Source: a virus
Virus record (IMG/VR): IMGVR_UViG_3300010885_013106
Span: 1-21,735 of that record
Strand: one strand, 5' to 3'
DNA: 21,735 nt
Notes under the pieces: generated by a model
What the model was told of the DNA's origin: nothing
Databases searched by the model: none
Seen by the model: only the letters and a program-made list of their open reading frames with translations
Program-made: the position numbers and the translations under genes
Shown: positions 4,211-21,384 of the stretch, piece after piece
Position numbering within the stretch: position 1 is the first letter of the stretch
Layout: each line of letters opens with the position of its first letter

Positions 4211-4996
4211 TTACTTGTTAAATAGTTGATCGAATGCTGCACCGATATCATCTACTGACGATGCTGCGGTTGAAGAAGACTCAATTGAAGCCTTATTCTG
4301 TTTTTGATTGTCGCTTTTAGCTGGTTCTGTCGACGTAGTCTCTTCTGATGGATTCAACCAATCTTGTAATGCTTTTACTAAATCATCGTAAGAAGGCTCT
4401 TTAAAGATGTCATTGATATTAGGTTGACTTGCAATTTTCTCTAATACAGACTTATCCGTAGTTACTGGAGTTACATTCGGTTTAATACGAATTGATGTCT
4501 CAGGATAATCTTTACCTGTTTGTTCTTTTGATTTAAATTCAACTGTAATATCACGTCCGTTCATTGGATCTGAAATATCACCGTAATCAGGGTCTGCAAT
4601 AAATCCTAAAAGTTCTTGATAAACCGTTTTACCAAAACCCCAAAACTTAATACCTTCATGCTCTTTACCACGCACAATAATAGGTGCATAGCAACGCATT
4701 GTTGGTTCAAGCTTCTTGCCCATTTTCCAATCTTCTTTACTGCCAGATGATTTTAATTTTTCTGCAAATTCTACAATCGGATCAGGTCTTCCATAAGTAA
4801 TAGGGGATAACATGTTCTTACCACCAAAGTTATAATGAAAGTAAAGCTCTAAAAATGGATTGTCTCGATTGTGCTGATAAGGAACTATCCTTATTTGCTG
4901 CGCGCCTGGTTCAGGCTTCCATAAATTGTTTTGCTTTGTCGTAACATTTTGAAGTTGCGATAACTTCTGCCTAACGGCGTCTAAATTAATTGCCAT
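4211..4996 (-). CDS. Single-stranded DNA-binding protein, T4 gp32-like
   Basis: Coats single-stranded DNA in replication, recombination and repair. The 261 residues have the gp32-family layout. A basic N-terminal arm (MAINLDAVRQKLSQLQ) is followed by a core with LWKPEPGAQQIRIVPY and KFWGFGKTVYQELLGF. The C-terminal tail is low-complexity, rich in Ser/Thr and acidic residues, and ends in VDDIGAAFDQLFNK. In gp32 such tails recruit partner proteins. Only one cysteine is visible (MRCYAP), so the Cys/His zinc site of T4 gp32 is absent. The start follows AAAGGTAAATT-ATG. The position directly before the recombinase fits the role. An AT-rich leader of about 65 nt and a promoter-like motif precede it, suggesting separate and possibly autogenous control. 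Confidence 0.85.
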   Translation of the reverse strand: MAINLDAVRQKLSQLQNVTTKQNNLWKPEPGAQQIRIVPYQHNRDNPFLELYFHYNFGGKNMLSPITYGRPDPIVEFAEKLKSSGSKEDWKMGKKLEPTMRCYAPIIVRGKEHEGIKFWGFGKTVYQELLGFIADPDYGDISDPMNGRDITVEFKSKEQTGKDYPETSIRIKPNVTPVTTDKSVLEKIASQPNINDIFKEPSYDDLVKALQDWLNPSEETTSTEPAKSDNQKQNKASIESSSTAASSVDDIGAAFDQLFNK

Positions 4997-5042
4997 AATT
5001 TACCTTTGTTTATTTGTTAATTGTTATTAAATATAATGAATT

Positions 5043-5052
5043 CTTACGTAAG
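5043..5052. repeat. Perfect 10-bp palindrome CTTACGTAAG upstream of the gp32-like gene
   Basis: A perfect palindrome between the promoter-like motif at 5079-5092 and the gp32-like start. It could be a protein-binding site or a weak element in the leader, but it is short and has no terminator-like T run. I assign no function. Confidence 0.3.
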
Positions 5053-5061
5053 TTACAAATT

Positions 5062-5448
5062 TTATTTAACATTTATTATTTGATATAAATATGTGTTAAG
5101 GAATTTTAATTCGTTGTTTGACAACAATAATATTCCATTTGAGTAATTAGTCCAATCAATTTTAAATGACTTATCTAATACTCCGTTATTCTGTTGTTTA
5201 ATTAAAGTATTCAATGAATTAATGGTATAAATGGTATTTGTATCTCTCTTTCGATGTACTAACATTGCATTAGGTAATTGTTTCCGTTGCATTTCTTTAT
5301 CAATGTTAAAACTACAAACAAACTCTTCGCTGTCTTGAATGCCTAATATAAAGATTTTTTTGAATAATATAAAATATGTAGATTCAATTATATTAGTTGT
5401 ATAATCTAAATTTTCTTTTACCGTAAATACACATACTAATTGACTCAC
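5062..5448 (-). CDS. Unknown 128-aa protein between polymerase and gp32-like gene
   Basis: I do not recognise a characterised family. The 128 residues look like a folded soluble protein with alternating hydrophobic strands at the N-terminus (LVCVFTV, YFILFKKIFILGI) and a C-terminal part with YTINSLNTLI and FKIDWTNYSNGILLL. There is no signal peptide or convincing membrane helix. The start codon is GTG at 5448-5446, supported by a strong ribosome binding site (AAGGAG with 5-nt spacing). The only nearby ATG runs straight into TAG. An exact copy of the 14-nt promoter-like motif lies 22 nt upstream. Its place between polymerase and ssDNA-binding protein suggests an accessory role in replication, which is inference only. 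Confidence 0.75.
   Translation of the reverse strand: MSQLVCVFTVKENLDYTTNIIESTYFILFKKIFILGIQDSEEFVCSFNIDKEMQRKQLPNAMLVHRKRDTNTIYTINSLNTLIKQQNNGVLDKSFKIDWTNYSNGILLLSNNELKFLNTYLYQIINVK
5079..5092 (-). promoter_or_regulatory. Promoter-like motif for the gp32-like gene (13 of 14 matches)
   Basis: In the gene direction this reads ATATTTATATCAAA, one change from the exact 14-nt motif before four other genes. It lies inside the last codons of the 128-aa gene, 82 nt before the gp32-like ATG. That would give a longer leader than at the other sites. The match may be constrained partly by coding sequence. Confidence 0.45.
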
Positions 5449-5470: not shown

Positions 5471-5484
5471 TTTAATATAAATAT
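5471..5484 (-). promoter_or_regulatory. Promoter-like 14-nt motif, exact copy, before the 128-aa gene
   Basis: Reads ATATTTATATTAAA in the gene direction, 22 nt before the GTG start and directly upstream of the AAGGAG ribosome binding site. The same 14 bases precede the tail tube, ferritin-like and 94-aa genes. It lies in the short gap after the polymerase gene, so it could restart transcription for the replication cluster. Confidence 0.6.
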
Positions 5485-5492
5485 AAAACGCC

Positions 5493-6836
5493 TTACTCAA
5501 CATCATGATAATTATTACCTTTTGTTAACTTTGATGGAAATTTATTATTAAGCTCGATTGTTTCTTTTATTTGACGTATTAAATTTTTGTCATAAACGCT
5601 CATATCAAATAAAAATGAATCGTATGTATATAGTATTAACTTACATTCTTTATCTTGTAATAGCTCATCTACGCTACTTATAATAAGAATATTTCGCTCT
5701 GTCTCATATATTTGAATAAAGTAGTTAAGCAATTTACTTGGATTGATATCCTTAAAGAATTTTTTATATAATTTTCTTCCAGCTAACGGAGATTCAATAT
5801 AACCTTCTTCCGTAAATTTCTCAAATAGCAAGTCAGTATACTTTTTTACTTGAGCAAAGAATTCAACTGCCATATAATCTTTTGTTATACCTCCATACAG
5901 CAATTTAAAACTAATTTGTTTTGATTCTTGATATTCAGCTTCATTTAAAGTATCTTTTTCAAAATACATTTTACCTAAATACTCGTGCACTGAAATATCA
6001 TCTGGAAATTTATAATCTATTAAGTCAGCTAATAATCGTAAGTGATAAGCGTCGTAATCAAATTGAACTAGAATGCCATTCTTATATCTACTTGTAAATG
6101 CCGATCTACTTCCATCTTCTTTATTTAATGCAGCGTAGTTAATACCATTAAATCTATTAGAAGGCCTTCCTGTTGTAGTATAAATATTATATTCAGTAAA
6201 TACTAATTTATCTGCATATAACGTTTCTTTAAAATGTTTATTGAATATCTTATGATCAATATTCAATCCATTTTTTTCTATATTATATAAAGTCCGAAGA
6301 ATAAAATCATAATAGTCATGAGCGGTAGTTATTGTATACGATTGATCTTCAAAATAATCTAATACATTAAAAAACTGTTCTCGAATCTTTTTACATCTAT
6401 CGTAATGTTTACTTATAGGAATAACTACATTGATATCAGATAAGTTTTCGTATGTTCTATAAAATTGATCATGGGTAGCAGTATCATAATCTTGATCTAA
6501 ATATGTATTTGAATAAAACCATTGTACTAAATCAATGTCAATTAAATTATTTTTTTCACTATATTTTAAAAATTTCTTTTTATCATAACAAAATATTTTC
6601 TCGAAACTATTAAGATAATCTTTTAATGTTTGTTTGTTTAACGATTCACTTTCCGAATGGTCATAACATAACATGTATTCATTTGATGAATCTATACTAT
6701 ATACATATAATAAAGATATATCACTTTCATGAAGAGTTTTGTATTCTGCACAATAAATAGGAATAATAAAATGTACGTTATCCGCTTCTTTTTCTAGGAA
6801 CTTAAAAAATTCTTTATGGCTATCTATAATTTTCAC
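5493..6836 (-). CDS. Divergent short family A DNA polymerase
   Basis: Probably the replicative DNA polymerase. The 447 residues match the C-terminal palm/fingers layout of family A enzymes: TGRPSN at 222-227 followed by INYAALNKEDGSR, motif A at 260-267 (DYDAYHLR), motif B at 306-315 (KQISFKLLYG), and motif C at 403-410 (YTYDSFLF). The two key carboxylates D260 and D406 are kept. The usual motif A glutamate (DYSQIELR) is H265, and the motif C HDE is YDS. The N-terminal about 130 residues could be a decayed 3'-5' exonuclease domain but show no clear DEDD residues, so proofreading would need another protein. The start is GTG 6836-6834 with no Shine-Dalgarno; an ATG at 6841 is out of frame, so the start is uncertain. 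It is shorter than most phage PolA proteins. Confidence 0.82.
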   Translation of the reverse strand: MKIIDSHKEFFKFLEKEADNVHFIIPIYCAEYKTLHESDISLLYVYSIDSSNEYMLCYDHSESESLNKQTLKDYLNSFEKIFCYDKKKFLKYSEKNNLIDIDLVQWFYSNTYLDQDYDTATHDQFYRTYENLSDINVVIPISKHYDRCKKIREQFFNVLDYFEDQSYTITTAHDYYDFILRTLYNIEKNGLNIDHKIFNKHFKETLYADKLVFTEYNIYTTTGRPSNRFNGINYAALNKEDGSRSAFTSRYKNGILVQFDYDAYHLRLLADLIDYKFPDDISVHEYLGKMYFEKDTLNEAEYQESKQISFKLLYGGITKDYMAVEFFAQVKKYTDLLFEKFTEEGYIESPLAGRKLYKKFFKDINPSKLLNYFIQIYETERNILIISSVDELLQDKECKLILYTYDSFLFDMSVYDKNLIRQIKETIELNNKFPSKLTKGNNYHDVE

Positions 6837-9651: not shown

Positions 9652-12600
9652 TTAAATGTTAGAATCCCATAACCAACTACCATTAGCTGTCGTTGGAGTA
9701 TAATTTCCTTCATATAAGTGATATACTCTACCACCTTTTTGCGGTCTCCAATCATGTATAACTTTAAACTGGACATCTACGTCTACTAAATTTGGTAACT
9801 GTTTTGCACTTTTATTTTTTCTTTCAGTTTTTGTACCATTGGATACTATATCATCTGCTAAGTCCCAAGAAGCTTCATCATTAACTGATACTGTTACTCC
9901 CGTAAAATATCCCGGAGTATTATAAAACATATTTCCCATTGTTAATCTACATAAAGCACCGCCTGGTCGACCAGCTCCGTAGATTGGCATTGTATATGAA
10001 GTTAAATAATTTAATTTTCTCCACATTGGTACAAGCTCTTCTCGAGTTGTAGCAGCTACAGTAAAATTAAAAGATACATTTCTTTCGAATGAACTATATA
10101 TAGCAGGCCCATCCGGTCGTCCCATAATTGAAACGGTATTCCAACCCGGACTAAATGAATCAGCTATTCCTTTAACAGTTGCTCTAAATACTACCACATC
10201 ATCTTTTTCTTCACCGAATAAATCTATACCGCCAAAATAAAATTTAATAAAATCTTTTGTATTATTTGAATATATATCATCAGGTTTAACGCCTTTCTTT
10301 TCAGAAATATAATCAATTGCATTTATTTTATCTCCTCTAAAAGTAGAGTCTTCTGATAATGAAAATTGATCTCTTCCCGTTTTTAATTGCCTAACGACCC
10401 CATCAATATTACCTACTATATTACCTGTAGAATCTTTACGCTCATATGGATTACTTCTATCATTATTAGGATTTCCATGATCACCAAAACCATATCGTTT
10501 AGATATATTATCATCTGTATAATTAACGTTTTTAGTATCTATAGAAAACGTACGGGTATCGCCATCTAATTTAGTACGAAAATCATTTATTTTTGTAGTC
10601 TTAGAATTATTACGGTCTTTTGCAATCTTACGTATTTCTGCATACGGCAATGTAGAATATCTATTTTGTTCGGAACTGCCATTGGCAGCAAATGCAGAAT
10701 TTTGAACCTTTAACGATAATCCTTCTGAATAGTTATTACCCGGTTCATTACCAGCGGATACTGTTTTATCTAACCATCTTTTAAGACTTCTAGGATTACC
10801 TGGACTGCTTGCTGATGTTGGATCTATATCATTTTCTAAATCGTCAATAGCTATTGCATCGTTATCACGTCCTTTTACATTTGAACTTAATTTAGGATTA
10901 CCTAAATGGCCTGTAGATATTTTAAATAGACCGGCATAATAATCTTCTGGAGATCTACTATTAAGTATTAAACGTTCAGTAACTTTATCTTCAGGATTAA
11001 AGGTTCTGGTATCTACATATCTTCTAATATTTGTAGATCCTATTCCGTATACAGATCCAGGTCCACCTAAACCAGATAACGTTTGTATAATAGGATTATC
11101 CGAGCCTTTAATTTTATTGGATAGTTTTTGAAATCCTTCTAATGTTTTTGATTTGGCAGGAATTTTTTGAGTGCCAAATAACTCCGTTTTAAGTTGTAAA
11201 AGTCTATTTACAGCTACAAATTGATTTGAATTTTTTGTTTGATATTGAATTACTTTTTCATATGATGCAGCTTCATTTAAAAATGGAATTCCATGTCTTG
11301 TAAAATGTAATCCAAATGCCGATCCTGGTACGGATAATAATGTAGATATTCCTGAATGTGACCGCGTATCATTAAATGGTAATACATTCTCCAGATTCTT
11401 TTCAACTAATGGATTTGATTTTCCTAATCCTACTTGAGTTATTGCCCATATAATACCTTTTGGACTTGCCATAAATTTAGCAAGACGCGCAGTATCAATA
11501 GCACTACGTTCTAATGCCGTACTAGCTCCGCCTCGTATAAATCCGCCATCTAATGCAGCCGCTAAATTATTTGCGGCAGTACGTCCTTCTTGCTGCCCTA
11601 ATGCATCTATACCCCATCTTTGCGGATTCAATACATTTGGATTTTGAATGCCCCTTAAAATTAAAGGATGCGCTATATATGTAGGATTAAATGCTTCGTC
11701 ACGCATTTTAAATTTAGAATATTGCTGTTCTAAAGGCGAAGGGCTTCTTCTACGTAATGCCCAAGATGCTAATAAACTTTGATTGGAATCATTACGAACT
11801 GCTTCTGCATATCTATTCTCTGCGTAAAAACCTTTATTGCCCATTTTAGAGCCAGCGCCTAATTGATTTTCTAATTTAGCCGATCCTCCTGAAGGTCCTA
11901 AAGTTACATTTAATAATCTTGCTCCATAAACCGTTTCAGGATATTGATATTTAGTATTATCTGCACTAATACCTATAAAGCCTGATTCATAAGGAGCTAA
12001 ATTAGTTTTGAATCCTTTAGCACCTGAAGTTTCATCTGGAAAATAATTTACTACTCTTAATTGATTTCCCGTTGGATTAGTATATACATTACCGTTAATT
12101 CCGGCAAATTGCGATTCGCCAATAGGATTCTTAATTATAAATCCTTTAGCAGGTCTATTATTAAAATAGTCTACTCCGATACCCGGTGTAGTATTAATTG
12201 TAGTTCCATTTGGATTAGTAAATGTAGTTCCGTTTATTCCAACAAATTGAGTTACTCCTATAGGATTTTTAATTGTAAAACCTTTTGCATATGTATTAGG
12301 CATAAAATCTATACCTGTACCAGCAGAAGTATTTATTACTGTACCGTTAGGATTTGTAAATGTATTGCCATTAATTCCTATAAATTGCGAAACGCCAATT
12401 GGATTTTTAATTGTAAATCCATTAGCATAAGTATTTAAAATATTATCTACATTTGGAGGTAATGTGCCAGGAAATCCATAAAGAGAAGTTTGTCCGTTAT
12501 TAACAAATTGCGTTACTCCTACTGGATTCTTAATTGTAAATCCTTTAGCGTTAGTATTTATAAATACATCAGTACTTGCAGGTAATGCAGAATCAAAATC

Positions 12601-12715: not shown

Positions 12716-15700
12716 TTATGCCCTATATCCATTTACGTTCGACGAATAAGATTTCTTAAGCGACATAACGCTTTGCATATCCGATATTGCTTTTTCGCCT
12801 ATTTTAAGTACTACTGGTTGATCTACTTTGGTTATTAATTCTTTTAATAAAGCTTCTACATTTTTAAAATTTGGTTGATTATTATCTGTATTAATAGTTT
12901 GCTCTGTTTGTACAATTGGTTGAGCACGTACTTCCGCAGGTTGTTGCATTACCGGGGTAACTGTAGTAGGTTTTGTTTGAGTTATTTGCGTTTCTTGTGT
13001 CGGCGTTTCTTCATCGCCAAATCCAAAGAAACTTCCTACAGAACTAATTGCATTACTTGCTAAATCTTTAACTCCCGACATTGCAGAGTTTAACGTATCA
13101 CCTAATCCACCACCTCCAACATCCTTAGGGGTAGCAGATGCAATTTGTTGCATACGAGATATATCATCGTCTGTTATATTTTTCATTGAAGCTAATAAAG
13201 AATCATATGATTTTGATAAATCATCAATAGCAGAAGCTAATGAATCTATTTCATTATATTCTATATTAGCAATATCATTTAATAAAGATGAAATTATATC
13301 ACCTTTATCTGCTACGCTATCATCTAGCGATGCCATTTTTTGATTAAATGATTCTATGCTAGTTCCCGCTAATGCAATAGTTTTAGCAACCGTATCAATT
13401 TTACCCGTGTCAATGGCAGCTAATTGAGTAAATACTGCGAATGGATCGGCGCCTAGGAAACTATTTAATGCGTCTGCTAATCCACCTTTTAAAACTTGAT
13501 TATTAAATTTATCTAATGCATCAGCTGCAGCAGATATCGGAGCAGTATCAATACCTCCGAAGTTTTTCAATGAATCGGCCATAGCAGTTAAACCATCTCC
13601 GGTAACTTTCATTTTATTACCGTCAATAGTTTCTAATTCTTTTAATGTATCTACTGGACTAGCTCCGAAGAATGATGCTATGCCATTAACTACCTCTCCC
13701 GCGGTTAATGCTAATAATCCAGCTCCTAATACAACTAATGCTCCACCTACTGCAAGTAAATTAGCAGCATCAACCTGGCCTAATGTAGCAATTGATTCGG
13801 TTATGGATGTTATTATTTTTGATATATTACTACCTATTGTATCAATTATTTTAGATACGCCATTAGCTAATGAATCTATAATAGGAGGAAGTTTACCGAA
13901 TACTCCTACCACCATATCAGCAAATATTTTTAACGCGGGTGCCGCAATATTTAAAGCCGCTGCAAATGGAATCATTGCTAATCCTAACGCAGCGATTAAT
14001 CCTACCGCTATAAAAGGTAATCCTGTTGCAGCGACTGCTCCTAATGCTTCTAAACCTACGCCTAATGCAATTAATCCAGCAGCACCTACTTCACCTAATA
14101 AAGCTATTCCACCTAAAAAGATCAATGAAGGAAGTGCAATTATCGCAGCTACTGCAAATGCGGCTAATGCTGCTGACCCTAACAATGTTGGGCTCATTAA
14201 CATTAATCCTTCTGCTAATCCTGTAAAGTTTGCCGCTAAAGAACCGAATGAAACTTTTCCAAATACTAATAAGAAAGGAATAGCCACTAATCCTAATGCG
14301 CCTGCTACTGCAAATGCACCTAATCCTGCTGACCCCATCATTGTACCTGACATTGATTGCAGTCCAGTTCCTAATGCAGTAAAGTTTTCTTCTAATTTAT
14401 CAAATTTTATTTTACCAAATACTAATAAGAAAGGAATAGACACTAATGCTAATCCTCCTGCAATACCAAATGCTCCAGTTGCTTTGACACCGTTAAGGGT
14501 ACCATCCATCGCTTTTAATCCTGCCGCTAAATTAGTAAAATTATCTTTTAAATTATCTAATTTAACTTTACCCATGAATAATAAAAATGGTATTGATGGT
14601 AATGATAATAATAGTGCAGGACCTGCTAATGCCATATTACGAATACCTTTTCCTACACCATCTTCGCCCATAGCTTTTAAACCATCGGCAAGATTTCTCA
14701 TATTATCCTTAAATCCTTCAAAGGCTCCTTTTTTCGTAGACTTTGAATCAATTCCTTTAGTATCTACTTCAGGCGTTTCTACTTTTTTCTCCGAAAGTTC
14801 GTCTACTCCACCTTTCTTTTTACCAAATGAAGGAAATTTACCTTCTTTAATACTTTTAAATCCATCTTTTAAAGAAGATCCAATACCTTTCGCACTATCA
14901 TACATTGATGATAATCCGTCTTTTGCTTTACCTAATCCTTTTAAAAGAAACCATCCACCGATTATAACTCCAATAGTAGTTGCAATTCCTTTAATCACTT
15001 CCATTGACATACTAGTGCCTTCAGCAGCTTTACCTGCTTCGCCCGTAGCATCTTTTATACCAAAAATATCTGTTTTAATATATTTTACTACTTTACTTAT
15101 TTTATCAAAAACAAAAGATATACCATCTATAACTTTGCCGATAGGATACCATGCACCTTTTAATACGGCCATTGATATTTCCATTATAGTACCTAATACA
15201 GATCCAATAACTCCAAATACTTTTGACATTGATTTTAATGTGCCTGATCCATCTCCTAATGAATCTACAAATTTGTCTATTATTGGTAATATTGGCTCAA
15301 CCATTTTATATAATAAATCAGTTACTTTTTGAATTGTACTACCTAATTTTTCTTGAATACCCGCACGTTGCTGTTCTGCAAGTTTAGCCTTTAACATTTT
15401 ACGAGCTTCATCATCTTTTAAACCGTTTAAAGTTTTTTGTAAATCTAATTGACCTTCTTTATCTTTAGCTAAAATTTCATTTAATTTCTTTTCGTCGATA
15501 CCCATGCTTTGGAGTTCTTTTTCCTTTGCCATCATACCAGCTAATTCGTCATTGGACATTCCTAATGCATCAGCTAATGCTCTTTTTTGGATAGGACCCA
15601 TTTTTTCGTAGTTGGCAAGAGTACCGGCTTGTTTTTTCATTTCTGCCATTTGCTTTTCTGTTTGACCGGTCATTGCATAATAACGAGCTGCATTCATATT

Positions 15701-18700
15701 AATATCTCTACCTAATATTAATCGAGCTTTATTTTCTGCCGTTACAGAAGATTCTATATCCATTAATTTATCGCCAGATGCAGCGACTTGGTCTAATGTA
15801 ACTCCCATTAACTTTGCTTGTTTAACTGCTAATGCTAATGCTTTTGGATTTTTTGAAAAATTCATTAATGTAGATTTAGATGTTTTAGCTATCTCTTTCA
15901 TTATTTCTTGAGCAGGTACTAATCCATCTTCCCCTAATGCTTGAGCCTGTAAACTAATATTTTCTAATGTCGTACCAGTAATAGCTGCTGCGGAATTCAA
16001 TCCCATTGTTTCGTCTGCAGTCAATCCAAATTGTGTAGTTAACATTGTACTAGTTTCTAACAGTCCCTTTGCTTTTTCATTAGTAAGAGCCATTTTGCCA
16101 ATATTCATTCCCGTAGCAGCTTGTAAATCAACCATTTGCTTTGTTACATCCGCGGCATTCATTCCTACTAGATCCATTTCTGCGGCAATATCTACTGCGG
16201 AATTTTGTAACTTTCCCGCTTCTTGATACGATACATTTAAATTATGTGCCAATTCAGATACTTGTTTATCTGCATCCATAAACAATTTCACTAATGCAAC
16301 TACTCCTGCAATAGCTAACAATAAAGGAAGTATAGGAAGTAATGATGCCATTAATGTAGAAGCGCCCGCTGAAGCGGCAGAGAAAAATCCTGATACTCCT
16401 CCGCCTGCACTCATGAATCCATCGGCAATAGATTTAAATAATTTATCCTTCATTTCAGATTGTATTTTATCTAATCCTAGCATTTTTGATAAACCGCTTG
16501 GTACTATACCAAATAATTTATCGACCGGAGCCATCATTGAATCGCGTAAGCCTTCTGCTTTATCATTAACGGTTGCATACGCTTCGGATGTTGCTTGAAG
16601 TGCTTGGTACGTTTTTAATTGAGCGTTATTTGCTTGTATATTCGCTTCTACAATGCCCATAGCCTCACCGAACTGCTCGGTCGTTAAATTATTTTGTTGT
16701 TCTAAAATATTTATCCGAGCTTGCGCAAGACCTCGTTGCTGTTCTAACTTATCGTTTATTTCATCACTTAAATCAATTTGATTATATTGTGCAGTTCCAA
16801 CTTCATATGCAGATTTTTCTACTGCTTGCATTTTAGCAGCTAAAGAGCCTTGATTAGTAATTTGATCTTTAGTTATATCATTTAATAACTCGTATGTAGT
16901 AACTAAGCCACTTGCTTGTATAGCAGCTGCTGTAGTTAAGGTATTTTGCTTTTCTTGTAATTCCGGTAATGATTCTGTTAAAGATTTTTGTTCTTGTATT
17001 AAATCGTTTAATTTTGTTTCTCTTGATAATCGGCGATTGGCTGCTTCATTTGCTCGGTACGTTAATTTATCGGATTCTTCTTGTAAAGATATTAATTTAT
17101 CTAATAATTTATTACGATCTTTTCCAGGGCCAGTATTAAGTTTTTCTTCTAATTCGGCCTGTTTACTTAAATTATTATATAATCTTTCATCTAATTTACT
17201 TTCTAACTGTTTTGCTTCGATTAATTCTGCAGAAGAATTATTAATATCTTGATCGATATTAATTAATCTTTCTCGTCCTATAGCTAGTTTATCTGTTATA
17301 TCCCCTAATTTACTAGTATCTGTATTTAAAATTTCCGAATATATTTGTTGACGTTTATCTAATACGTTTAATCTAACTTTAGAATCTTCAAGAAATTTAC
17401 TTTGACTTATTTGACTCGCCATTTCTTTCGTAACTAATCCAGAAGCTTTAAATCTAGGACCATCGTATGTAGATAGCTCTTTTGAAATTTCTGCAAACTG
17501 CTTTTGGCCTGCAGTAGATTCTTTAATTTTATTTTGAAATTCGTTTTGAGCGCTAGTAGAATCTTGAATCGTACCCGTAAGATTTTTACTATAATTCATT
17601 AAAAACTGCGATTCTGCTTTTGACGCCTTACCGCCTTCATTTATTTTTTTTATGATAGTATCATACTTTTTTTGCATTTTATCTAATGCTTTAGTAGATG
17701 CTATTGTATTATTTGTTACTTCATTCGTAGCATTTGCTTGATCTTGTATTGCAGCAGTAGCATTTGAAGTATCAACTTCTGTTTGTAATTGTATAGACGG
17801 GGTATTTTTGGCTATATTACTTAAATTTGATACATCAGGCGTATCTATAATCGATGATAATATAATTGGATTATACTTATTAATTGTTTTATCAAGTAAA
17901 GATGTATCTACTAAACCAATTTCAGCCATTAATTCTGAAATAGGCATTTTATCCAATTCTGATAAATCTATTTTATTTAATTTAGCATTAATAGATATAT
18001 CATTAAAATTCGGTAATTCTAAATCTTGAACATTAAATTTAATAGTTGCACTGATATCTTCTACTTTAGGTAATTCTATGTCCTGAACGTTAAATTTAAC
18101 ATTTGCTTGTATATCTTCGATAGGCTGAACCGTGTATTTAATAGAAGCATTAATGTCTTCTACTTTAGGTAAATCTATCGGTTGAGTATTAAATTTAATA
18201 GAAGCATTAATGTCTTCTACTTTAGGTAAATCTATCGGTTGAGTGTTAAATTTAATATTTGCATTGATATCTTCTACTTTCGGTAAATCGATTGGTTGAG
18301 TATTAAACTTAACATTTGCTTGAATGTCTTCAACTTTTGGCAAATCAAAAGTTTGTACATTAAATTTAATGTTTGCATTAATATCATCAAGTTTAGGTAA
18401 GTCAATATTCTCTAATTTACTAATATCTACATTTGATATAGATGCATTTAAATTAATATCAGGTAAATTTTTAATAGATTCTTGTAATGTAGATATATCT
18501 ACTTCATTAATATTTGAAATAATATTCAAATTAGGTACTTTTATACTCGATATATCTTTTGAAAAACTATTTAATTCACCTCGTAGCGATCCGAATTCTT
18601 TAGATAATGACATTACTGACTTACTCATGTCAGTCATCTTATCTTGTATTTTATCTGAATAGTCTATAGAATCCTTAAATCCAGATGTTAATGTCTTGAC

Positions 18701-18832
18701 AAAATTATCAAGTTTTTTAGTATTAAAAACTTTTGATAATTCTTTTTCTAAATCTTTTATTGATAAAGTAACGTCATCAAAAGAGTTTTTAATCTCTTCA
18801 GCTTTTTTCTTCGGATCTTGCTGTTTTGCCAT
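12716..18832 (-). CDS. Tape measure protein, 2038 aa
   Basis: Sets tail length and is threaded inside the tail tube. It is the longest gene, follows the tail chaperone region and precedes baseplate genes, the classical tape measure position. An N-terminal helical region (1-110) is followed by a 19-residue repeat array (about 145-285). A long glutamine-rich coiled-coil part comes next (about 390-780, e.g. LEEKLNTGPGKDRNKLL). A hydrophobic segment lies near 829-853 (LLPILPLLLAIAGVVALV). A conserved central domain (about 870-1110) contains ALGEDGLVPAQEIMKEIAK and NMNAARYYAMTGQTEKQM. Three 52-residue hydrophobic repeats lie at 1414-1569, before a Ser/Thr/Gln-rich tail. At roughly 1.5 angstrom per residue the length predicts a tail near 300 nm if it is mostly helical. 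The start lies 4 nt after the 94-aa stop and has only a weak ribosome binding site, implying coupling. Confidence 0.93.
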   Translation of the reverse strand: MAKQQDPKKKAEEIKNSFDDVTLSIKDLEKELSKVFNTKKLDNFVKTLTSGFKDSIDYSDKIQDKMTDMSKSVMSLSKEFGSLRGELNSFSKDISSIKVPNLNIISNINEVDISTLQESIKNLPDINLNASISNVDISKLENIDLPKLDDINANIKFNVQTFDLPKVEDIQANVKFNTQPIDLPKVEDINANIKFNTQPIDLPKVEDINASIKFNTQPIDLPKVEDINASIKYTVQPIEDIQANVKFNVQDIELPKVEDISATIKFNVQDLELPNFNDISINAKLNKIDLSELDKMPISELMAEIGLVDTSLLDKTINKYNPIILSSIIDTPDVSNLSNIAKNTPSIQLQTEVDTSNATAAIQDQANATNEVTNNTIASTKALDKMQKKYDTIIKKINEGGKASKAESQFLMNYSKNLTGTIQDSTSAQNEFQNKIKESTAGQKQFAEISKELSTYDGPRFKASGLVTKEMASQISQSKFLEDSKVRLNVLDKRQQIYSEILNTDTSKLGDITDKLAIGRERLINIDQDINNSSAELIEAKQLESKLDERLYNNLSKQAELEEKLNTGPGKDRNKLLDKLISLQEESDKLTYRANEAANRRLSRETKLNDLIQEQKSLTESLPELQEKQNTLTTAAAIQASGLVTTYELLNDITKDQITNQGSLAAKMQAVEKSAYEVGTAQYNQIDLSDEINDKLEQQRGLAQARINILEQQNNLTTEQFGEAMGIVEANIQANNAQLKTYQALQATSEAYATVNDKAEGLRDSMMAPVDKLFGIVPSGLSKMLGLDKIQSEMKDKLFKSIADGFMSAGGGVSGFFSAASAGASTLMASLLPILPLLLAIAGVVALVKLFMDADKQVSELAHNLNVSYQEAGKLQNSAVDIAAEMDLVGMNAADVTKQMVDLQAATGMNIGKMALTNEKAKGLLETSTMLTTQFGLTADETMGLNSAAAITGTTLENISLQAQALGEDGLVPAQEIMKEIAKTSKSTLMNFSKNPKALALAVKQAKLMGVTLDQVAASGDKLMDIESSVTAENKARLILGRDINMNAARYYAMTGQTEKQMAEMKKQAGTLANYEKMGPIQKRALADALGMSNDELAGMMAKEKELQSMGIDEKKLNEILAKDKEGQLDLQKTLNGLKDDEARKMLKAKLAEQQRAGIQEKLGSTIQKVTDLLYKMVEPILPIIDKFVDSLGDGSGTLKSMSKVFGVIGSVLGTIMEISMAVLKGAWYPIGKVIDGISFVFDKISKVVKYIKTDIFGIKDATGEAGKAAEGTSMSMEVIKGIATTIGVIIGGWFLLKGLGKAKDGLSSMYDSAKGIGSSLKDGFKSIKEGKFPSFGKKKGGVDELSEKKVETPEVDTKGIDSKSTKKGAFEGFKDNMRNLADGLKAMGEDGVGKGIRNMALAGPALLLSLPSIPFLLFMGKVKLDNLKDNFTNLAAGLKAMDGTLNGVKATGAFGIAGGLALVSIPFLLVFGKIKFDKLEENFTALGTGLQSMSGTMMGSAGLGAFAVAGALGLVAIPFLLVFGKVSFGSLAANFTGLAEGLMLMSPTLLGSAALAAFAVAAIIALPSLIFLGGIALLGEVGAAGLIALGVGLEALGAVAATGLPFIAVGLIAALGLAMIPFAAALNIAAPALKIFADMVVGVFGKLPPIIDSLANGVSKIIDTIGSNISKIITSITESIATLGQVDAANLLAVGGALVVLGAGLLALTAGEVVNGIASFFGASPVDTLKELETIDGNKMKVTGDGLTAMADSLKNFGGIDTAPISAAADALDKFNNQVLKGGLADALNSFLGADPFAVFTQLAAIDTGKIDTVAKTIALAGTSIESFNQKMASLDDSVADKGDIISSLLNDIANIEYNEIDSLASAIDDLSKSYDSLLASMKNITDDDISRMQQIASATPKDVGGGGLGDTLNSAMSGVKDLASNAISSVGSFFGFGDEETPTQETQITQTKPTTVTPVMQQPAEVRAQPIVQTEQTINTDNNQPNFKNVEALLKELITKVDQPVVLKIGEKAISDMQSVMSLKKSYSSNVNGYRA
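14126..14593 (-). repeat. Three 52-residue hydrophobic repeats in the tape measure protein
   Basis: Residues 1414-1569. Each unit starts IPFLLxxGK, continues with a DxLxxNFTxLxxGL stretch, and ends in a small-residue hydrophobic segment such as GAFAVAGALGLVA. The period is exactly 52 residues (156 bp). Each copy could supply one or two membrane-spanning segments, which fits a tape measure that inserts in the host inner membrane at injection (inference). Confidence 0.85.
17978..18400 (-). repeat. 57-bp tandem repeats coding a 19-residue unit in the tape measure protein
   Basis: About seven copies of a unit like LPKVEDINANIKFNTQPID at residues 145-285. One copy lacks the DLPKV part. Two neighbouring copies share 52 identical bases (18136-18187 and 18193-18244, offset 57), showing recent duplication or ongoing recombination. 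Outer copies are more diverged. Confidence 0.92.
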
Positions 18833-19170: not shown

Positions 19171-19404
19171 TTATTTTCTGCCTGGAGTTATACCTGGCCT
19201 ATCTGTACCTTTTGAAGATTTTTTATTTGCATCTTTTTGAGCTTTATTTTGTTCTTCAATTGTTTCATTTATTTTTTTGATATAAAATCGCCTTAAGAAT
19301 ATAGGCATATTGTAGACGCACTCCCAAGTGAATCCTCCCTTCCCGTGATATACGAGATTAAATATCTCCGAGTGGAGATATGGGCGATACTCAGGAGTTG
19401 GGCC
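19171..19404 (-). CDS. Frameshift extension of the gp26-like chaperone, 77 aa
   Basis: An open frame not joined to its upstream gene in the normal reading frame. From GGC at 19404-19402 it codes GPTPEYRPYLHSEIFNLVYH, then GKGGFTWECVYNMPIFLRRFYI, then a charged tail to TAA at 19173-19171. The GGF-(acidic)-VYNMPI-LRRFY part looks like the second domain of phage tail assembly chaperones or T4 gp51-type proteins. No ATG, GTG, TTG, CTG or ATT occurs in this frame before the M at 19308, yet the earlier residues look coding, and the frame runs back over the T7 run of the upstream gene. The natural reading is a +1 (or -2) frameshift at TTT-TTT-T giving a product of about 360 residues. Alternatives are a sequencing error in the T run, or an independent 45-aa protein from 19308. 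Confidence 0.72.
   Translation of the reverse strand, partial: GPTPEYRPYLHSEIFNLVYHGKGGFTWECVYNMPIFLRRFYIKKINETIEEQNKAQKDANKKSSKGTDRPGITPGRK
19362..19381 (-). promoter_or_regulatory. Perfect 8-bp hairpin downstream of the putative frameshift site
   Basis: In the mRNA sense, ATATCTCC, a 4-nt loop ACTC, then GGAGATAT. It begins 23 nt after the T7 run and 9 nt after the zero-frame stop, inside the extension frame. It has no T run, so it is not an intrinsic terminator. It may stimulate frameshifting, although the spacing is longer than the usual 5-9 nt for -1 sites. Confidence 0.55.
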
Positions 19405-20254
19405 AAAAAAAGCTCACGTCCATCGGCATATCCATTATTTTGGTTTCGCCGGTTGTTTCTGAAGTGAATATAAATGTCATATCTAAATCTGGAGTAACTT
19501 TTTTAATTTCATCACGTAATGCACGAGAATCCATTGCAAGAAGTTCATTGTCTACAAAACCATTAATTGTAGCAGTATCTGATTTACCATCAACTGACGT
19601 AATTAAATTTTTCAACCTTGTAGTAAGTTCTTTATCTATTCCCGTATTCTTTATTAACTTGGCATATCCTTTAAGATCTTCTTTAATCTTTTTCTCTAAA
19701 CCATGCGTCAGTAATCGATACGTAATTGTTCTTTTAGATGCCGGTAAGACGAACGTAAATTCATTTTGTCCAGGAACGATAGACTCATAGTCATATTCTT
19801 TTGGAGCAATTGTCGTTAAGTCTATGACCACTTTTTGTTTGTTATCCGAATATGGATCTTGCACTTCAACTGCATACTCTTTACCATATCCTAAAATACG
19901 AGCTGCGATCATAATTGCATTTTTATCGCATACTAATAAATCATCGTAATTGATTTTAGATACAATCATCGATTGAAATAATTTATCTAATACAACGCCT
20001 TGTTTAATAAGATTAGTAGAAGTAAGAATATCCTCTTCTCTTGCAGTCATATATTTCATTTCTACTTGCCCGGATGCTAATGCATTGTCTGTTGCATATA
20101 ATAATCCTTTAGTAGGAAGATCTACAATTTCTGTAGGGAAGTTATATTTCTTAACTTCTTCTTGTTTAAAATTTTGGAGAGCTGCTGCTTTAAGCGCTGC
20201 GTCGGACATATCGTCCGCGGGTTTTTTTGGGTAGTTTTCGTCAACTAATGCCAT
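19391..20254 (-). CDS. gp26-like tail/baseplate chaperone, 287 aa (zero-frame product)
   Basis: Resembles the T4 gp26 family of baseplate/tail assembly proteins. Visible blocks are YNFPTEIVDLPTKGLLY (about 38-54), VEMKYMTAREEDIL (about 64-77), LIKQGVVLDKLFQSMIV, DLLVCDKNAIMIAARILGYG (about 106-125) and a C-terminal FTFVLPASKRTITYRLLTHG region. The LPSKG-like turn, MT..EE, D...I...RI.GYG and final LT.G order is what I recall for this family. The zero frame ends SFFWPNS-TGA just past the T7 run, only four codons after the possible shift. It starts at ATG 20254 with a weak AAAGAT ribosome binding site. Location immediately upstream of the tape measure region fits a chaperone that coats the tape measure. 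Confidence in the gene is high; in the exact T4 counterpart, moderate. Confidence 0.82.
   Translation of the reverse strand: MALVDENYPKKPADDMSDAALKAAALQNFKQEEVKKYNFPTEIVDLPTKGLLYATDNALASGQVEMKYMTAREEDILTSTNLIKQGVVLDKLFQSMIVSKINYDDLLVCDKNAIMIAARILGYGKEYAVEVQDPYSDNKQKVVIDLTTIAPKEYDYESIVPGQNEFTFVLPASKRTITYRLLTHGLEKKIKEDLKGYAKLIKNTGIDKELTTRLKNLITSVDGKSDTATINGFVDNELLAMDSRALRDEIKKVTPDLDMTFIFTSETTGETKIMDMPMDVSFFWPNS
19405..19411 (-). other. Putative slippery run TTTTTTT (possible +1 or -2 frameshift site)
   Basis: The zero frame reads AGC-TTT-TTT-TGG. Phe tRNA on the second TTT can re-pair fully after a +1 slip, leading to GGC and the 77-aa extension; a -2 slip reaches the same frame. A -1 slip leads to a different frame without the conserved residues. 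Six T instead of seven would give one continuous gene, so an assembly error must be excluded. Confidence 0.6.
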
Positions 20255-20288: not shown

Positions 20289-20792
20289 TTATTTAAAATA
20301 CTTATTTTCAAAATACAATACATCTAATTGATTATCTACATTAACTAATTTAGCTGCATTTAATAAATCTGAATATTCAATTACGGACTCTGTTTGAAGT
20401 TTTCTAAACTCTGTAAATAAATCGAATGTAGCTAAATCTGACGTAAATAAATCTTTAGAATCTTTATTATACCTATCAAATAGATTATACTCTAATAAAT
20501 ATGCCTTATTAATAATATCAATTAAACTTGTAAAAGTAATATTTGGTTTAACTGCAGGCAATTGCGGATCGATATTCCAATCCACTAAATACTGTTGCAA
20601 TTTATACGCGTGCTCTAATTCACTCGCTGCTTCTGCTTCGAAAAATTTTGTAGCTTTTTTATAATTGGCATTACCGCACCAATTTTTAGCATTGGTATAA
20701 AAGAAATGAGCTTTATACTCGTCAGCAATTCTATTATTAATAATTTCTACGGACGAATCAATTAGCGTATTTGGACTTTTTGGTGTTTCCAT
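20289..20792 (-). CDS. Ferritin-like di-iron protein, 167 aa
   Basis: Predicted four-helix ferritin, which would oxidise Fe(II) and store or bind iron. Length fits ferritin subunits. Candidate metal ligands fall in the right order and helices: E25 (DEYKAHFFY), E58 and H61 in the ExxH motif (ASELEHAYKL), E101 (YLLEYNLF), and E135/E139 (TESVIEYS). The C-terminus LYFENKYFK resembles the LYF.D.EL end of bacterial ferritins. The usual glutamine before the last glutamate appears as S136. It has its own ribosome binding site (AAAAAGG) and an exact promoter-like motif 17 nt upstream, placed after the terminator of the tail tube gene, so it may be expressed separately. Its role in a phage is unknown: iron capture, oxidative protection or a virion component are possible. 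A non-ferroxidase helical bundle with chance residues is less likely. Confidence 0.87.
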   Translation of the reverse strand: METPKSPNTLIDSSVEIINNRIADEYKAHFFYTNAKNWCGNANYKKATKFFEAEAASELEHAYKLQQYLVDWNIDPQLPAVKPNITFTSLIDIINKAYLLEYNLFDRYNKDSKDLFTSDLATFDLFTEFRKLQTESVIEYSDLLNAAKLVNVDNQLDVLYFENKYFK

Positions 20793-20823: not shown

Positions 20824-20833
20824 GTAACGGCCT

Positions 20834-20867
20834 AAAAAAAATTCCCTATACGATTAATATAGGGAAT
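20834..20867 (-). terminator. Intrinsic terminator after the tail tube gene
   Basis: In the gene direction, a perfect 10-bp stem ATTCCCTATA / TATAGGGAAT with a 7-nt loop (20841-20867) is followed directly by seven T (20840-20834). It begins about 29 nt after the tail tube stop codon. This is the clearest terminator in the window. Confidence 0.88.
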
Positions 20868-20895
20868 CTTTATATATTCTAAATATTTAATTTTA

Positions 20896-21384
20896 TTAGA
20901 ACTGCAATATAGCGTAGTCATACTTAATAGTTAAGCTAATGTTGATTGCATCTTCTGTAGACCAATCAAAATCACCGAACTGAGCTGCGCCGATATAAGC
21001 ACCTTTTAAAGTCCATTCTTCAACTTTATCACCTACTGGTCCTAATACGTTGAACGTAATGTCTTTCTTATAGAAGTCAGAATATCCATCACGACCTGTT
21101 ACAGACTCATGAGATAAACGTACCCATTCCATTACTGCTTGCGCACCAGAAGGAACAATTGGATCATAAAGAGTAATAGTAACATCATCCCAACGACCTT
21201 TTCCTTTTAATTTTCTTTCAACGTTGATATGATCTAATACTACATCGCCAAATGTAATACTTGGACGACCTGAAGCCTTAACTAGGTATGCAGGGATACC
21301 TTCGATGTACATAATAAACCTGTTGGCTACTTTAGGTTCAAATGCGGTAAACATTATTTCGGTAGGGTCAATTAATTCTGCCAT
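20896..21384 (-). CDS. Tail tube protein, T4 gp19-like
   Basis: Subunit of the inner tube through which DNA and the tape measure pass. The 162 residues match the gp19 tube family in length and layout. An N-terminal strand region (ANRFIMYIEGIPAYLVKASGRP) leads to GDVVLDHINVERKLKGKGRWDDVTITLYDPI, then VMEWVRLSHESVTGRDGY with a KKDITFNVLGP strand. The C-terminus reads WTLKGAYIGAAQFGDFDWS and ends in a beta strand TIKYDYAILQF. It starts at ATG 21384 behind AAAAGG. An exact promoter-like motif lies 42 nt upstream with a small hairpin between, and a strong terminator follows. This arrangement suits a highly expressed single-gene unit, as expected for a protein needed in hundreds of copies. Confidence 0.92.
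   Translation of the reverse strand: MAELIDPTEIMFTAFEPKVANRFIMYIEGIPAYLVKASGRPSITFGDVVLDHINVERKLKGKGRWDDVTITLYDPIVPSGAQAVMEWVRLSHESVTGRDGYSDFYKKDITFNVLGPVGDKVEEWTLKGAYIGAAQFGDFDWSTEDAINISLTIKYDYAILQF

Follow-up and report, generated by a model that had tools for sequence, protein, structure and literature searches.

Phage tail chaperones are a textbook case of a conserved frameshift, mostly of the -1 type, and T4 has long been called an exception. In phage lambda, the tail assembly chaperones gpG and gpGT were related by a -1 frameshift (Xu, Hendrix and Duda 2004, as reviewed in PMC5009743). Vladimirov, Gautam and Davidson (2022, as reported in PMC12846349) described T4-like chaperones that have -1 poly-T signals, and in some T4-like phages the short and the long chaperone have a gene each (the same work, as cited in PMC10885494). 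Chaperone frameshifting, the T4-like chaperones (26/51) and -1 slippage in T4-like phages are already published. A +1 frameshift is very likely in the chaperone of the haloarchaeal myovirus HSTV-2 (PMC5009743, PMC8211752), and phage Mu is a known natural case of a -2 shift, also in a tail chaperone (PMC3498833). The +1 cases in Listeria phages, which the first-pass annotation of this DNA had cited as chaperone examples, are capsid and tail-shaft genes instead (PMC5009743). The +1 site of influenza A PA-X, UCC_UUU_CGU, was found by peptide sequencing, and the P-site tRNA-Phe moves there from UUU to UUC (PMC3498833).

The window, which is the whole 21.7-kb virus record analysed here, contained a gp26-like gene divided between two reading frames of the minus strand. 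The best explanation for this arrangement is a programmed +1 frameshift that makes the long form of the tail chaperone (probability of about 85%). The gene was composed of the following parts.

19391..20254, minus strand: zero-frame ORF of 287 aa, candidate short chaperone form (G / TAC-N), T4 gp26-like (phrog_150, E 1.9e-8; PF12322, E 4.1e-5)
19403..19414, minus strand: putative shift site AGC TTT TTT TGG (UUU_UGG), the same or a variant site at 87 loci
19171..19413, minus strand: +1-frame ORF of 80 codons and a TAA for the C-terminal (T) domain, start codons absent from codons 1-35, dN/dS 0.115
19171..20254, minus strand: 360-aa product predicted from one +1 slip, the long form of the chaperone (GT / TAC-NC), AlphaFold model with a mean pLDDT of 83, N-terminal part resembling YqbN (3klu) and the HK97 chaperone (2ob9)

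The 3' end of the 287-aa ORF read ...GAC GTG AGC TTT TTT TGG CCC AAC TCC TGA on the minus strand, and the seven A residues of the plus strand at 19405-19411 corresponded to a T7 run on the coding strand. The zero-frame TGA was located four codons beyond the second TTT, as the first-pass annotation had read it. The +1 frame opened at 19413, immediately after a +1-frame TGA, and closed at the TAA at 19171-19173. This frame had no ATG, GTG or TTG for 35 residues, the first being the ATG inside VYNMP. The start-less segment proposed earlier was real, with one correction to its length, from 77 residues to 80 open codons (77 being the count from the GPT after the run). Translation of the gene with a single +1 step gave 360 aa, the length expected for the fused product.

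Relatives were collected by a scan of viral contigs, which gave 80 at 44-94% identity, and named isolates were taken from a phage collection. In total, 87 loci were classified, the window included; one further locus (LR756511) was excluded as its gp26-like match stopped short of the junction. The break was kept at the same place in all 87 loci, sequenced isolates among them; at 87/87 loci the gp26-like ORF had the site at its end and the extension lay in the +1 frame. The isolates with this arrangement included Microcystis phage Mel-JY01, the Flavobacterium immuto phages, Bacillus SP-15, Listeria LIS04, and Streptococcus GXN1. The 87 sites were distributed as follows.

TTT TTT TGG: 63 loci
TTT TTT TTC: 6 loci
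TTT CTT TGG (immuto type): 5 loci
CTT TTT TGG: 5 loci
TTT TTC TGG: 2 loci
TTT TTT TAC: 2 loci
TTT CTA: 1 locus, LR756508
TTC TTT CGT: 1 locus, GXN1
TTT TTT CAC: 1 locus, SP-15
TTT TTT AGT: 1 locus, LIS04

The same break was kept at sites that have no long T run, namely TTTCTTTGG in the five immuto-type loci, TTTCTATTC in LR756508, and TTCTTTCGT in GXN1. The extension was complete at 82 loci, which represented 61 distinct sequences. In these 61 extensions the median dN/dS of the +1 frame was 0.115 (41 close pairs), and past the zero-frame stop the differences by codon position, counted in the +1 frame, were 310/185/754. Purifying selection acts on the extension as read in the +1 frame, and the open frame is far from a chance product. 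The first Phe codon was TTT in 50 of 51 loci when 36 were expected from each locus's own codon use, a comparison between kindred loci that carries no formal probability. The long chaperone form was missing from the annotation of the named isolates examined: the extension was entered as a separate hypothetical protein in Mel-JY01 and as a truncated protein in the immuto phages and SP-15, and was unannotated in LIS04 and GXN1.

The 287-aa ORF matched phrog_150, the family of the T4 gp26 'baseplate hub', over residues 34-284, and its match to PF12322 (23.8 bits) was 0.7 bit below the cut-off of 24.5. The gene was flanked by two tail genes.

20896..21384, minus strand: tail tube gene (gp19-like), upstream (phrog_4542, E 9.1e-26)
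12716..18832, minus strand: gene for a tape measure protein of 2038 aa, downstream (tail length tape measure family phrog_167, E 3e-8)

The order tail tube, chaperone, tape measure was the same in the immuto phages and LIS04 by annotation, and the chaperone gene adjoined the tail tube gene in Mel-JY01 and SP-15. This position between the tail tube and tape measure genes points to a tail assembly chaperone pair of the lambda G/GT type in a T4-like phage. Several other features were observed in this region. A 167-aa ORF with a ferritin-like domain (PF00210, E 3.4e-17) was located between the tail tube and chaperone genes (20289-20792, minus strand), and a Dps/ferritin-type protein within a tail module was unexpected. 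Between the tail tube and ferritin-like genes (about 20833-20871, minus strand) lay an inverted repeat that resembled a terminator, ATTCCCTATA...TATAGGGAAT with a T run after it. The start of the tape measure gene (17997-18400) contained tandem repeats of about 57 bp, with 4.6 copies at 82% at 18136-18400, and the gene next to it carried a 138-bp repeat array (12057-12435). A 550-aa ORF antisense inside the tape measure gene (13680-15332, plus strand) is probably a by-product of codon use.

When the AlphaFold model of the 360-aa product was compared with known structures, the best two of 589 re-aligned PDB chains were YqbN (3klu) with a Z of 6.3 and the tail assembly chaperone of HK97 (2ob9) with a Z of 5.2, which are modest scores; in a Foldseek search of the PDB, 2ob9 ranked second with an E value of 1.4. 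YqbN is a protein of chaperone type. In the comparison with viral models, the SP-15 baseplate hub subunit was the top match to bear the name of a known protein (E 2.7e-18). No relative was found in the PDB by sequence. The gp26-type chaperone identity given in the first-pass annotation was thus supported by phrog_150, by the position between tube and tape measure, and by the two best structural matches, both of chaperone type. The +1 domain matched phrog_634, the family of the T4 gp51 C-terminal domain, weakly (E 0.13). A profile-profile comparison with the cyanophage-type gp51 gave a probability of 93 and an E value of 2.9e-7 for that single pair. Single-sequence PHROG searches with the +1 domain from other loci returned nothing convincing, and no match was obtained between the window-type protein profile and T4 gp51 as a single sequence.

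Downstream of the site, one candidate stimulator was predicted in the window.

19320..19398, minus strand: predicted RNA stem-loop, possible frameshift stimulator, beginning 7 nt downstream of the UUU codon that slips

The RNA from 19398 to 19320 had a minimum free energy of -33.6 kcal/mol with a z value of -3.71, and none of 200 shuffles reached it. The outer stem was invariant in the five closest relatives (L007-L011), and the stem-loop accordingly displayed no covariation within its clade. Other lineages (L012, L036, and L044) had a short G+C-rich hairpin of another kind in this position. Across the family, a downstream RNA structure was unconvincing, with a mean z of -0.72 over 61 loci, and only structures confined to a lineage looked strong. 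No convincing Shine-Dalgarno stimulator of the prfB kind was found in the window, where the duplex had -4.0 kcal/mol and the family median was -3.9.

The same frame relation could be reached by other routes, which were weighed against programmed +1 frameshifting. An error of one base in the homopolymer, with the 360-aa gene in truth continuous, was previously regarded as the main rival and would suit a homopolymeric run in a possibly fragmentary virus contig. It was rejected because the break was conserved at 87 loci in many assemblies, including isolate genomes, even at sites without a long T run; its probability is negligible, and the two-frame break is genuine and no sequencing error. Translation of the extension as a separate gene, by re-initiation or from a non-ATG start, finds some room in the GTG or TTG codons that the +1 frame contained within 60 nt of the zero-frame stop in 26/69 distinct loci, and in the ATG found in only 8/69. 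However, 35/69 distinct loci, the window clade included, had none of these start codons. In the window, the +1 frame was shut by a stop one codon ahead of the run and the first possible start fell in the middle of the conserved domain. A separate gene with its own start was rejected for the window clade, and is highly improbable as an account of the family.

A programmed -2 shift on the T run, in the style of the Mu gpGT precedent, would add one extra Phe, so that the junction would read ...VSFFFGPTPEYR where a +1 shift gives ...VSFFGPTPEYR. Most sites, including that of the window, have runs of T6-T7, on which a -2 shift or transcriptional slippage leads to the same frame, and tRNA-Phe could re-pair with its cognate codon two bases upstream at 80/87 sites, the window's among them. 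A cognate +1 slip of tRNA-Phe from UUU to UUY was possible at 87/87 sites. The seven remaining sites (five UUU_CUU_UGG, one UUU_CUA, and one UUU_CGU) had no cognate -2 slip while the frame relation was unchanged. Because these seven sites permit cognate re-pairing for +1 only, and +1 on UUU_Y accounts for all sites as a single mechanism, +1 is favoured and the -2 shift is unlikely. The earlier proposal of a +1 (or -2) event was therefore upheld as to frameshifting, and narrowed in direction. Transcriptional slippage, in which the polymerase would drop one U or add two on T7 to give mixed mRNA, could draw on the T7 of the window and the T9 of a few relatives. The same seven sites kept the frame relation with a longest T run of three, and slippage was ruled out as a general mechanism since some relatives have no T run; its chances are very small. 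The usual -1 chaperone form, with a -1 frame and an X_XXY_YYZ heptamer, did not apply, the extension being in the +1 frame throughout.

Programmed +1 frameshifting would proceed as follows. The majority of ribosomes would read UUU UUU UGG CCC AAC UCC UGA through to the stop and release the short 287-aa form (G / TAC-N). On some ribosomes, tRNA-Phe would slip by +1 from UUU to UUY, skipping one base and adding the second domain. In the clade of the window, the stem-loop 7 nt downstream may help the ribosome pause. We infer that the shift occurs in the cell and, by analogy with lambda, that the tape measure protein would be coated with numerous copies of the short form and a few of the long one, while the C-terminal domain would recruit tail tube subunits.

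A cyanophage-type sister group (P-SSM2 and 80 contigs, L090-L169) was compared at the same junction. In this group, gp26 ended in an invariant in-phase T_TTT_TTC and gp51 lay in the -1 frame, and the U_UUU_UUC -1 heptamer occupied the place homologous to the +1 site. The second Phe codon was TTT in 0 of the 48 loci tested, though TTT was the commoner codon in nearly all of them. Most loci of this type had a gp51 ATG just downstream, and the P-SSM2 annotation lists gp51 as a gene of its own. Desulfovibrio phage 7757 had no ATG, GTG or TTG throughout its -1 extension, and its long form is therefore very likely made by frameshifting. In T4, gp26 and gp51 (4803-5429, minus strand, and 5480-6229, plus strand, of locus L087) belonged to one Pfam family, PF12322, and gp51 consisted of a gp26-like domain (PF12322, E 3.9e-52) with an attached C-terminal domain (phrog_634, E 1.2e-23). 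By domain make-up, the two T4 genes are the two-gene version of the short and long chaperone, which agrees with the separate short and long genes cited in PMC10885494.

A tree built from 49 gp26-type proteins placed the +1 loci on one side of a single branch with a support of 100/100, and the frame labels changed the minimal number of times; the long deep branches and arbitrary root of this tree give no order of +1 and -1. On balance, +1 slippage at UUU_Y is probably the inherited route to the long chaperone across one deep T4-like branch, while its sister group slips by -1 at the corresponding Phe-Phe codons and T4 has two genes, such that the direction of the slip changed and the fusion was kept. 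If so, the hosts of the +1 branch would span Flavobacterium, cyanobacteria, Bacillus, Listeria, and Streptococcus, and one gene would have found three solutions (+1, -1, and two genes).

When compared with the known systems, the family resembled lambda gpG/gpGT in arrangement, and lambda shifts by -1 whereas this family has a +1 frame relation at a Phe UUU_Y site. With T4-like gp26/gp51 it shared the gp26 family (phrog_150) and a junction at the Phe-Phe end; T4 has two genes and the cyanophage type U_UUU_UUC with -1, whereas the clade of the window has +1. The first-pass annotation had called a +1/-2 event in a T4-like phage unusual, which holds for the +1 direction only, as T4-like frameshifted chaperones were already published with -1 (as reported in PMC12846349). 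No report of a +1 chaperone clade was found in the literature searched, in which Vladimirov 2022 was represented by PMC10885494 and PMC12846349. The clade-wide +1 version of the T4-like chaperone frameshift appears to be new, and was probably overlooked so far. HSTV-2, likened here by its published description, very likely has a +1 tail chaperone, but it is an archaeal virus. Mu gpGT is a tail chaperone in the same relative frame as +1, but it is made by a -2 shift, and +1 fits the present family better. With its two predicted products, the +1 clade would allow +1 and -1 recoding to be compared in nature at a single homologous site. The GXN1 site UUC_UUU_CGU shares UUU_CGU with PA-X, an unrelated gene of a eukaryotic virus, and the +1 clade would add a conserved case from bacterial viruses to the UUU_Y +1 class that influenza PA-X had led to predict.
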